A stretch of 64,000 nucleotides of DNA, taken from NCBI GenBank assembly GCA_029266635.1, contig JAQSWM010000005.1:1-64000 (forward strand). The letters run 5' to 3'. This document shows positions 59,765-64,000 of the stretch, piece by piece. Below the pieces are notes generated by a model that did not search any database, was not told the origin of the DNA, and saw only the letters and a program-made list of their open reading frames with translations. The translations under genes and the position numbers were made by a program. How positions within the stretch are numbered: position 1 is the stretch's first letter; the number at the start of each line of letters is the position of its first letter. This DNA is from Sphingobacteriaceae bacterium (GTDB lineage: Bacteria > Bacteroidota > Bacteroidia > Sphingobacteriales > Sphingobacteriaceae).

Positions 59765-60277
59765 ATGAAAACGTTTATAACTTTTTTTCTTGTTCTCATA
59801 AGTTTATTTTTTCTGCATGCCTGCAAAAACGAAAAAGAATCTGAATTGCCACCAGCTACTACGAGCGGAAAGAATATCATCGCAGGTTATTTAGATGGGA
59901 AGCTGTTTGTCTCAAGGAGAGAGGGTTTATTAACCATTGACCCTAGTGTGACATACGACTCTTCAACTCCCGTGTTTACTCTTAGTGGACGAGACCAGTT
60001 AGTGCCTGATGGCGTGATAGTCGGCTTTACACTCAAAGAGAACCTGCAGACAGGGAAGTCACAGATAACGTCATCGAGTAAGAATTCAGCAGTTTTAATT
60101 GTTCGAGAAAGTTCGGGCGTGTTAGTTAGCCATACTGCTGATTCTGGCTACATTGAATTCACCCGGTTTGATCCCGTCGAACGAGTTTATTCTGGCTTAT
60201 TTGAAGTTACTTTTAAAGGGTCGCTAGGTCAAATCATACATTTCAAAGAGGGTCGCTTTGACTTGAAGGCTTTTTAA
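59765..60277 (+). CDS. Lipoprotein of unknown function
   Basis: A 170-residue lipoprotein (signal ending LHAC, then KNEKE). The mature domain has alternating hydrophobic residues and repeated Gly-turns (IIAGYLDGKLFVSR, YSGLFEVTFKGSLGQIIHFKEGRFDLKAF) typical of small all-beta proteins of the phylum. No family assigned. The closing strand motif G-x-F-x-V-T-F-K resembles that of a group of periplasmic DUF-type proteins, but I will not name it. Monocistronic. Confidence 0.7.
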   Translation: MKTFITFFLVLISLFFLHACKNEKESELPPATTSGKNIIAGYLDGKLFVSRREGLLTIDPSVTYDSSTPVFTLSGRDQLVPDGVIVGFTLKENLQTGKSQITSSSKNSAVLIVRESSGVLVSHTADSGYIEFTRFDPVERVYSGLFEVTFKGSLGQIIHFKEGRFDLKAF

Positions 60278-60372: not shown

Positions 60373-60404
60373 TTTGGAAAGAAAAAAATAAATCCTTACA
60401 TTTG
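60373..60404 (+). promoter_or_regulatory. Consensus promoter of rimP-nusA-infB
   Basis: TTTG (60373-60376), 20 nt, then TACATTTG (60397-60404): both elements fit the phylum consensus exactly. The predicted start is near 60411, four bases before the A-tract of the hairpin described next. Confidence 0.8.
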
Positions 60405-60414
60405 TATCAATCTG

Positions 60415-60448
60415 AAAAGAGGGGACCTGTTTGTCCCCTCTTTTTTTT
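60415..60448 (+). terminator. Terminator-like hairpin at the very 5' end of the rimP leader
   Basis: A perfect 8-bp stem GAGGGGAC/GTCCCCTC (extended by A4/T4) with loop CTGTTT is followed by eight T (60441-60448). It lies between the predicted transcription start and the rimP start at 60473, so it is an attenuator or an early-terminating leader for the operon. Whether it terminates in vivo is inferred. Confidence 0.8.
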
Positions 60449-60472
60449 ACCTGCTTTTTTGGAAGGAAGTAT

Positions 60473-60937
60473 ATGAATATCGAGCAGCGTGTTATTGAAT
60501 TAATTGAGGAAAAGATCGCCGACAAGCCTGAGCTTTTTATTGTCGATGTTAAATTTCATCCGAACGGGAAGCTGATCATATTGGTGGATGGAGATAACGG
60601 CATTGCCATTCAGGATTGTGTTGCGATAAGCCGGCATGTGGGTTTTCATCTCGAAGAAGAGAATACAATTGAGCAGGCTTACAACCTGGAAGTTTCATCG
60701 CCGGGCATAGATGCACCGCTGAAGTTAAAACGGCAATATCTAAAGAACGTCGGTCGCAGCCTTGAAATTAAAAAGGCAGATGGAAGCAAAGCAGAAGGGA
60801 AATTGCTGCAGGTAGATGATGCCGGCATCACGATAGAAGAAATTATAAAAGTAAAAGGGAAGAAGGCAGAGCTTATCGAGGCGACTATCCCGTTTGATCA
60901 AATAACAGAAACAAAAGTGTTAATTTCATTTAAGTAA
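60473..60937 (+). CDS. rimP: Ribosome maturation factor RimP
   Basis: About 154 residues from ATG 60473, preceded by GGAAGGAAG at a proper distance; the longer reading from 60431 would start within the hairpin and is unlikely. The N-terminal domain (about 1-75: LFIVDVKFHPNGKLIILVDGDNGI) and the C-terminal SH3-like domain (EVSSPGIDAPLKLKRQYLKNVGR in two parts; VDDAGITIEEI) are present. It helps assemble the 30S subunit. It is followed after 1 nt by nusA. Confidence 0.93.
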   Translation: MNIEQRVIELIEEKIADKPELFIVDVKFHPNGKLIILVDGDNGIAIQDCVAISRHVGFHLEEENTIEQAYNLEVSSPGIDAPLKLKRQYLKNVGRSLEIKKADGSKAEGKLLQVDDAGITIEEIIKVKGKKAELIEATIPFDQITETKVLISFK

Positions 60938-60938
60938 A

Positions 60939-62174
60939 ATGAACAATATCAATTTAATCGATTCATTCCAGGAGTTTAAAGACTTCAAGAATATCGACAG
61001 GCCAACGGTGATCAGTGTATTGGAAGAGGTGTTCCGCAGCATGATCAGGAAAAAATTCGGCACCGACGAAAATTGCGACATTATTGTGAATCCCGACAAC
61101 GGGGATTTGGAAATCTGGCGCACCCGTACCGTGATGGAAGACGGCTTTTCTGAAGATGACGATCTGGAAATTGAGCTTGCAGAAGTACAGAAGATAGATC
61201 CGGATTTGGAGGTTGGTGATGATTATATTGAGCAAATCACGCTTGAGAGCTTCGGCCGCAGGGCGATCTTGGCAGCTCGCCAAACGCTGGTTTCTAAAAT
61301 CCTTGAGCTTGAAAAAGATGAGATTTTCCGCAAATACAAAGATCGCGTAGGCGAAATTGTAACCGGAGAAGTTTACCAGGTTTGGAAGAAAGAAACACTG
61401 ATCCTCGATGATGAAGGCAGCGAATTGATCTTGCCAAAAACAGAACAAATCCCTGCAGATTATTTCAAAAAAGGCGATTCTGTTCGTGCCGTGATCCTGA
61501 AGGTTGATATGATGAATACCAATCCCAAGATCATCATCTCCCGTACAGCTCCTGAGTTTCTCCAGCGTTTGTTTGAGATGGAAGTTCCCGAAATTTTCGA
61601 CGGGCTTATCACCATCAAAAAGATCGTTCGCGAACCAGGCGAGCGTGCTAAAGTGGCGGTTGAATCATACGATGACCGTATTGACCCTGTTGGCGCATGT
61701 GTGGGGATGAAAGGCTCACGCATCCACGGTATTGTTCGCGAGTTGAAAAACGAGAACATTGATGTAATAAACTTTACAAATAATATTTCGTTGTATATCC
61801 AGCGTTCTTTAAGCCCTGCAAAGATCACCAGCATCAAACTTGATGACGCGGAAAAACGTGCGGCGGTTTATTTAAAGCCGGATCAGGTATCCTTGGCTAT
61901 TGGCCGGGGCGGACATAATATCAAACTTGCAGGCAAATTGACCGGCTACGAAATCGATGTATATCGTGAAAACGACGAAACTGATGAAGATGTGGACATT
62001 GAAGAGTTTGCAGATGAGATTGATGGATGGATTATTGATGAATTTAAGCGCATTGGCTTAGATACTGCAAAATCTGTTTTAAATTTATCGGCTGATGAAC
62101 TTGTAAAACGTACTGATTTAGAAGAAGATACTGTACGCGAAGTTCTTGATATCCTGCGTTCTGAATTTGAATAA
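60939..62174 (+). CDS. nusA: Transcription termination/antitermination protein NusA
   Basis: 411 residues: an N-terminal RNA polymerase-binding domain (1-~125), S1 domain (about 130-200, GEIVTGEVYQVWKKETLILD), KH1 and KH2 (about 230-345, VGACVGMKGSRIHGIVRELKNE in blocks, and AIGRGGHNIKLAGKLTGYEID), and an acidic C-terminal region with one short helix-hairpin domain (about 360-411). There is no pair of C-terminal acidic repeats as in E. coli. NusA acts on hairpin pausing and may feed back on the leader hairpin upstream. Confidence 0.95.
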   Translation: MNNINLIDSFQEFKDFKNIDRPTVISVLEEVFRSMIRKKFGTDENCDIIVNPDNGDLEIWRTRTVMEDGFSEDDDLEIELAEVQKIDPDLEVGDDYIEQITLESFGRRAILAARQTLVSKILELEKDEIFRKYKDRVGEIVTGEVYQVWKKETLILDDEGSELILPKTEQIPADYFKKGDSVRAVILKVDMMNTNPKIIISRTAPEFLQRLFEMEVPEIFDGLITIKKIVREPGERAKVAVESYDDRIDPVGACVGMKGSRIHGIVRELKNENIDVINFTNNISLYIQRSLSPAKITSIKLDDAEKRAAVYLKPDQVSLAIGRGGHNIKLAGKLTGYEIDVYRENDETDEDVDIEEFADEIDGWIIDEFKRIGLDTAKSVLNLSADELVKRTDLEEDTVREVLDILRSEFE

Positions 62175-62267: not shown

Positions 62268-64000
62268 ATGTCAGAAGGTAAAAGCACCAATTTATTAAAA
62301 GCTGCAAAAGAGCTTAACATCGGTTTATCTACCGCTGTAGACTTTTTAGGCAAAAAAGGGTACAAAGTTGAACCCAAGCCTAATACGAAACTTAGCGAGG
62401 ATATGTACGAAGTTCTTTTGAAAGAGTTTCAGGGGGATAAAATTGTACGGGAAGAAGCCAAGCAGATTGTTATTGGCAAAATCCGCCGCGATGATATGCC
62501 GCCAGGAACTGAGCAGCCGCAAAGGCCGGAGCCGAGGCATTCAAGAGACTTTGAGCACGAAGAAATCCTGATCAAAAATACAGGTTCCTTCTCTGCTCCG
62601 CCGCCTGCAGAAAAGCCAAAACCAACTCCTCCGCCTGCTCCAACTCCGGCACCAACGCCTGAACCTGAAGCGCCTAAGGCAGATGAGCCCGGCTTGAAAG
62701 TTGTTGGTAAAATCAACCTTGACGAGTTAAACTCCAAAACACGCCCAGATAAAAAAGCGGAAACAGCTAAGCCTGAACCGCAGCCAGAGCCAGTGCCCGA
62801 GAAAGCACAGGAAGAAAAGCCTGTTGCTGCACCTGTTGCCGAACAAGCTCCTGCAAAACCAGAAGAGGCACCTGCCGCAACGCCTGCTCCAGAAGCAAGC
62901 GATGAAGGCGAAGATGTTATCCGGGCTAAAGCCGAAAGGTTAACAGGGCCGAACGTTGTAGGCCACATCACGCTTCCAACACAGCCGCCACGTCGTAAAG
63001 ACCAGCCGGTGGCGTCTTCATCCAATCTCGCAGCAAACGACAGCAAGCGGAAACGCAAGCGTAAGGATTTCCCCGGCGGCGGACAGCCACAAGGCAATGC
63101 GCAACAGGGTACTACAGGCGCCCGTCCAGGAATGCCTGGTCAAACCACAGGTGGAACTATCAACCCTAACCGTCCGGATTTCAGGAACAACGCCGCCAAC
63201 AGAGCTGCCCAGGGTAACCGTCCAGGATTTGGAAATCGCGGAGGACGTCCGGGAGATGGGCCCAAAGCTGAACCAACAGATAAGGAAATACAAGATCAGA
63301 TTAAGGCAACGCTTGCCCGTTTAAGCGGCGCCGGAAAGTCTGGTAAATTCTCACAACGTGCCAAACTTCGCCGCCAGAAACGTGACGATGTTGCGCAAAG
63401 TGCGGAGGAGGAAGCATTAGAAAGAGAACTTCAATCAAAAATATTAAAGGTTACAGAGTTTGTAACCGCAAACGAGCTCGCAAGCATGCTTGATGTTCCG
63501 GTAACGCAGGTTATTTCAACCTGTATGAGCCTGGGCATGTTCGTTTCCATCAATCAGCGCTTAGATGCAGAAACACTGAGCATCGTTGCTGATGAGTTTG
63601 GCTACGAGGTTGAGTTTGTAAAGCCCGAAGATGAAGAGACTTCCATTCTTGAAGAAGAAGATAGTCCTGAAGATTTGATCCCTAGAGCGCCAATTGTAAC
63701 GGTGATGGGCCACGTGGATCATGGTAAAACTTCGTTGCTTGACTTTGTCCGTAAGGCCAACGTAATTGCAGGTGAGGCCGGTGGTATCACGCAGCACATC
63801 GGAGCTTATGAAGTAACGCTTGAAAACGGAAATAAAATTACATTCCTTGATACTCCTGGTCACGAAGCGTTTACCGCGATGCGTGCTCGTGGTGCCAAGG
63901 TAACAGATATTGCGATCATTGTAATTGCTGCTGATGATAGTGTGATGCCTCAAACTCGTGAGGCGATCAATCACGCTCAGGCAGCGGGCGTTCCAATCGT
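62268..64000 (+). CDS. infB: Translation initiation factor IF-2 (3' end beyond the window)
   Basis: The frame from ATG 62268 is open to 64000 (577 codons), so the gene is partial at its 3' end. The N-terminus ([20 protein letters not shown]) is the IF2-N module, followed by a long Pro/Ala/Glu linker (about 85-250) and a basic Gly-rich part. The GTPase domain begins near residue 475, with G1 [23 protein letters not shown] (G2) and [11 protein letters not shown] (G3). It directs fMet-tRNA to the ribosome. It is part of the rimP-nusA-infB operon; TATTTTTG at 62233-62240 could be an internal -7 element. Confidence 0.96.

Follow-up and report, generated by a model that had tools for sequence, protein, structure and literature searches.

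A conserved hairpin at the predicted start of the rimP-nusA-infB transcript in Bacteroidia: a probable rimP-leader attenuator

Why does an operon encoding NusA and IF2, core transcription and translation factors, carry a terminator hairpin between its promoter and its first gene? The question arises in a 64,000-nt stretch of Sphingobacteriaceae DNA (the window, analyzed over its whole length), where three forward-strand genes lie in a row: rimP (60473–60937, 154 aa; Pfam RimP_N and RimP C-terminal SH3 domains), nusA (60939–62174, 411 aa; Pfam NusA_N, S1, and KH domains), and infB (62268–64000, running past the window end; Pfam IF2_N and GTP_EFTU). The RNA-binding domains of the encoded NusA were recognized by profile alone; its closest relatives among at least 119 listed loci, described below, are those of Pararcticibacter amylolyticus (91.7% identical) and Pedobacter frigiditerrae (89.5%). 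Upstream, outside the element, a forward-strand ORF of 170 aa (59765–60277) matches no Pfam family and has, judged by its N-terminus, a lipoprotein-like start.

The first-pass annotation had placed a promoter directly ahead of the hairpin, and its letters and coordinates are borne out by the sequence. On the forward strand, a −33 element TTTG (60373–60376) is separated by exactly 20 nt from a −7 element TACATTTG (60397–60404), which follows the Bacteroidota consensus TAnnTTTG. The position rule given for Flavobacterium psychrophilum sets TAnnTTTG at −12 to −5, so that transcription is predicted to start on A60409. This start lies 6 nt ahead of the A–T part of the hairpin and 10 nt ahead of its G+C part, and the U-tract would end near +40, in agreement with the earlier claim that the hairpin directly follows the transcript start. 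Across both strands of the window, TAnnTTTG followed by a terminator hairpin within 35 nt occurs at one site, before rimP.

The hairpin (60415–60444, forward strand) reads AAAAGAGGGGAC-CTGTTT-GTCCCCTCTTTT. Its perfect 8-bp stem, GAGGGGAC/GTCCCCTC (60419–60426 with 60433–60440), closes the loop CTGTTT and forms a G+C-rich core at 60419–60440, or 60419–60448 together with the T8 tract at 60441–60448; both the stem and the tract had been described beforehand and were recovered letter for letter at their coordinates. The first four T of the tract also pair with A's, adding four A–T pairs (60415–60418 with 60441–60444) for a stem of 12 bp in all. Folding of the leader (60409–60475) gave −24.3 kcal/mol (z = −4.65), equaled by 0 of 200 shuffles, and the core stem has one site only in the 3.6-Mb genome, in whose assembly no 16S was found. 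This hairpin was missing from the nine sites returned by a simple terminator scan (6.7 would be expected in shuffles), presumably because the stem extension pairs away T's. The remaining 24 nt of the 5′ UTR (60449–60472) separate the T8 tract from the rimP ATG at 60473 and leave no room for another promoter; RNA arriving from upstream must therefore read through the hairpin.

Conservation was assessed in leaders of the family and of the class beyond it. Of 201 family genomes, 198 yielded a RimP, as did 145 of 158 class genomes. From the former we took 79 leaders, window included, comprising the nearest matches plus 40 spread over genera; from the 140 RimP-bearing class genomes outside the family we took 100, hand-picked before any leader was seen. 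Within the 200 nt preceding the RimP match, a terminator hairpin with TAnnTTTG 0–35 nt upstream was present in 79/79 family leaders and 89/100 class leaders, counts drawn from species that share kinship and are not independent trials. Dinucleotide shuffles yielded the combination in 0 of 1,790 cases and the hairpin alone in six. Promoter plus hairpin before rimP is thus not a chance occurrence, and the comparison with other Bacteroidota that the first-pass annotation had proposed finds the hairpin conserved.

TAnnTTTG precedes the hairpin in 168 of the 179 sampled leaders. Among the 11 class leaders that failed the strict pattern, eight (L074, L079, L083, L087, L114, L115, L127, and L128) have TAnnTTTG with a weaker or less regular hairpin and one (L106) has a hairpin and lacks the promoter consensus; no terminator-like hairpin was found in the leaders of L093 and L130. 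L122 was counted as positive, its weak hairpin standing 146 nt ahead of the RimP match. L093, L130, and L122 may represent losses of the hairpin at its usual place. The stem lies 13–146 nt from the RimP match in relatives and ends within 45 nt of it in 139/168 leaders. With distances left uncapped, the hairpin keeps a more constant distance to the promoter (SD 9.9 nt in the class and 3.1 nt in the family) than to the gene (22.9 and 13.3 nt).

In the stem, letters are conserved along with pairing. Among the 163 of 179 leaders that entered the count, 67 carry GAGGGGAC as their 5′ arm and 38 carry GAGGGGGC (105/163 together). Standard pairs occupy each of six core positions and two outside pairs in 97–100% of the 145–162 hairpins scored, percentages inflated by the selection of hairpins for pairing (6 of 168 were omitted for want of a GGG run). 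What is informative is how pair types replace one another: Across leaders, G–C, A–T, G–T, and C–G all occur at the fourth core position, and A–T, G–T, G–C, C–G, T–A, and T–G at the fifth. These pairs were counted by script; a MAFFT alignment misplaced left arms, loop lengths being variable. Loops are not conserved, with 125 distinct versions among 168 hairpins. The 10 nt that follow the stem core hold at least six T in 150/153 leaders, and the 10 nt beyond them do so in 9/153, in a count that did not demand T (26 of 179 leaders gave no strict core). Uninterrupted runs of at least seven T are found in 19/168 of the relatives' hairpins, and runs of at most five in 116/168; the window copy combines a strong stem with T8.

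Upstream of the stem, between start and GGG, the leader is short (median 15 nt). Between start and stem, none of 152 leaders contains a C-rich 4-mer that could base-pair with the 5′ arm, which argues against an upstream antiterminator. A leader peptide was also considered and set aside: The start-to-stem stretch of ∼15 nt holds an ATG in 30/152 leaders and an NTG in 64/152, with no conserved start codon.

The stem is closely tied to rimP. A scan of GTDB contigs for GAGGGGAC-N3–9-GTCCCCTCTTTT returned at least 119 stretches, and in 112 of those listed RimP lies just downstream, with its projected start 4–138 nt past the fourth T; one sequence (L251), which ends 87 nt past the hairpin, was left out of this judgment. 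TAnnTTTG occurs within 45 nt upstream in 98 of the 112 RimP-bearing loci among the matches listed. The seven other listed stretches come from other phyla (five), a Bacteroidetes MAG (one), and a Mesonia record that stops beyond the hairpin (one). Exact-pattern searches matched 52/158 class genomes and 55/101 family genomes, numbers that miss many leaders because exact letters are demanded; in 49 of the 52 matched class genomes the match adjoins rimP, by eye comparison of the tables. Seven matches in four genomes lie away from any RimP match (G283:C126, G283:C132, G325:C10, G325:C23, G339:C5, G339:C29, and G217:C25). RimP was not found in G283, so its two matches were not judged; the matches in G283 and G325 resemble chance occurrences of promoter plus stem in G+C-rich DNA.

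Outside the class, the hairpin persists with other letters. We examined 20 leaders from other classes of the phylum, one per family; in 14 of them the finder detected a terminator-like hairpin, located 50–147 nt upstream of the RimP_N domain match. In a further five (L181, L189, L192, L194, and L200), the fold is a hairpin interrupted by mismatches or bulges and followed by a T run, and one (L190) showed no hairpin with a T run. The GAGGGGAC stem is absent from all 14 hairpins and the five folds; stems there include GCCCG/CGGGC and GTGGG/CCCAC. In E. coli, rimP is preceded by two terminators, GGGCTTTAGGCCC among them. Since position is kept while the stem letters differ, the position of the hairpin is, on this sequence comparison, probably older than its letters.

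Attenuators of this kind are already known. The rimP-leader has been called the most ubiquitous transcription attenuator and is described as having G-rich and C-rich arms and no antiterminator, with NusA as the best candidate (Naville and Gautheret 2010, PMC2965389). With that description, the element studied here shares its location in the 5′ UTR of rimP-nusA-infB, a G-rich 5′ arm and a C-rich 3′ arm with C–G closure, a T-stretch (T8 in the window; 150/153 leaders T-rich), proximity to the gene (24 nt from T-tract to ATG, within the described 4–130 nt from the gene start), and the absence of a visible antiterminator (0/152). The stem differs, GGGGRC/GYCCCC here as against GGGc/gCCC there, with one purine separating the G run from the C; here the hairpin lies nearly next to the promoter, unlike in the rimP-leader as described. 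The word Bacteroidetes does not occur in the main text of that paper.

Precedents exist in other bacteria. In S. agalactiae, RNA-seq revealed two RNAs, one short and one long, that share a start, with termination 31 nt after it; the authors proposed NusA feedback for this rimP-nusA leader (PMC4448216); in that member of the Firmicutes termination was seen by RNA-seq, whereas here it is predicted from sequence. B. subtilis NusA is autoregulated via NusA-stimulated leader termination (Mondal 2016, as reviewed in PMC12288461), and the same review describes NusA as acting especially at suboptimal terminators, with a weak hairpin or an interrupted U-tract. Deep sequencing of B. subtilis gave a long rimP (ylxS) leader of 180 nt (PMC2965389), whereas the leader here is short. 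For E. coli, two terminators upstream of rimP and regulation of the operon by NusA are described (PMC6511841). A fusion of the E. coli rimP 5′ UTR and ORF gave lower expression in a Rho mutant (PMC7815308), an effect that the attenuator reading does not explain.

No Rfam family was found to fit the leader in the sequences searched. Rfam RF01770, the gammaproteobacterial rimP leader, has the operon in common and matches E. coli (102 bits); it has no match in the window at the gathering threshold or at E up to 10. At gathering, Rfam returned three tRNAs only in the window, nothing fitting the leader, and nothing in 20 chosen of 178 family and class relatives. Sub-threshold matches (BTnc060, L20_leader, GibS, and others) lie far below their cut-offs and were rejected; in the alignments shown, their good part is the terminator. 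For Flavobacterium psychrophilum, a structured 5′ element ahead of rimP has been reported that lies in a transcribed region, is conserved in other Flavobacteriaceae genera, and has no Rfam match (PMC9723704). It occupies the corresponding place in the same phylum and is named there as one example. This was the sole mention found for Bacteroidota in the openly accessible papers examined, and the class-wide stem letters have no earlier report that we could find in openly searchable papers. What this analysis adds is a class-wide, strongly conserved stem closely tied to rimP.

The conserved promoter and early hairpin, together with NusA precedents in B. subtilis and E. coli and the proposal for S. 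agalactiae, make attenuation the best reading, as the first-pass annotation had suggested. Beyond the observed anatomy, conservation, and tie to rimP, we infer that termination occurs at the hairpin and that NusA sets it; that the element as a whole is a Bacteroidota form of the rimP-leader attenuator, with read-through set by NusA feedback, we regard as likely. RNA polymerase would start near 60409, and the hairpin with its U-tract would release an RNA of ∼40 nt in a fraction of rounds. Read-through would be obligatory for expression: Only read-through copies would yield rimP, nusA, and infB. Plentiful NusA would help the hairpin form and raise termination, scarce NusA would raise read-through, and the operon could thereby keep NusA steady, along with RimP and IF2. 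Such a circuit would need no antiterminator RNA. With no antiterminator and no upstream gene served, control would fall on termination itself, for which NusA is the natural candidate agent, and by analogy with the other bacteria NusA feedback on the Bacteroidota operon is plausible. One feature cuts against NusA dependence of the window copy in particular: Its hairpin and T8 look near-optimal, and B. subtilis NusA acts most at weak terminators.

That same strength fits a fixed, unregulated early terminator, in which a constant read-through fraction would keep expression low with no response to NusA. We consider such an account unlikely. The anatomy alone requires no regulator, and the missing antiterminator is equally at home with it; a weaker promoter, however, would achieve an equal effect, the stem letters are kept across the class beyond what pairing demands, and in other bacteria NusA feedback has been reported for this operon.

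The retention of letters raises the further idea that a trans-acting factor, either NusA or a different protein, recognizes the Bacteroidia stem sequence while polymerase is leaving the promoter. We hold this to be quite unlikely. If true, the operon would be gated at a fixed checkpoint near +40 that all transcripts pass, by a sequence-specific promoter attenuator unlike ordinary NusA-stimulated termination.

A narrower version assigns recognition of the GAGGGGAC/GTCCCCTC stem, and the setting of read-through, to a protein other than NusA, such as RimP, a ribosomal protein, or an antitermination factor. The prevalence of the two 5′ arms (105/163) is odd for a plain terminator, and a motif-reading protein has been argued for the rimP-leader of other bacteria, with NusA preferred (PMC2965389). 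This version is decidedly improbable, given that other classes of the phylum keep the hairpin with different letters (20 leaders) and that four family leaders (L016, L142, L167, and L169) have their G and C arms reversed (e.g., GAGCCCCG..CGGGGCTC) while promoter, position, and T-tract are kept. Those four leaders are a natural arm-swap experiment.

Proximity to the gene could instead point to a role after transcription, through protection of the 5′ end or a ribosome block at rimP; the fourth T lies 4–20 nt before the projected RimP start in 98/112 loci among the matches listed. The conserved U-tract and the tighter spacing to the promoter than to the gene speak against it, and we judge it very improbable.

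That the hairpin is the terminator of the upstream gene is largely refuted, and little credence is left for it. An upstream ORF is codirectional in the window and in 28/39 family loci, window included; it is divergent in the other 11/39, and the nearest upstream ORF is divergent in 82/106 scorable named loci among the matches listed (simple ORF calling, at least 90 codons; 6 of 112 loci were too short). The hairpin also follows closely upon the rimP promoter.

A separate role for the aborted leader RNA, raised in the first-pass annotation, is weakly disfavored by the 125 distinct loops in 168 hairpins, and its action in trans as a small RNA of ∼40 nt, which efficient termination would make abundant, has a vanishingly small probability given those unconserved loops, the short start-to-GGG stretch (median 15 nt), and the lack of a visible conserved seed.

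Read as a NusA-responsive attenuator, the leader suggests that a large bacterial class limits NusA and IF2 by stopping RNA almost at its start. Firmicutes, Gammaproteobacteria, and Bacteroidota would then share a like solution with unlike stem letters, pointing to a circuit that is old or was repeatedly chosen. The GAGGGGAC/GTCCCCTC signature offers an easy marker for the missing Rfam family, and the leader is a compact test bed for how early polymerase can be stopped.

An antisense promoter was considered and rejected, the TAnnTTTG pattern occurring in antisense on the far side of the hairpin in just 2/168 leaders. Across 60415–60448 the stem is flanked symmetrically, by A's on its 5′ side and T's on its 3′ side, so that antisense RNA could also be terminated there; the 5′ side is A-rich in 65/168 leaders.
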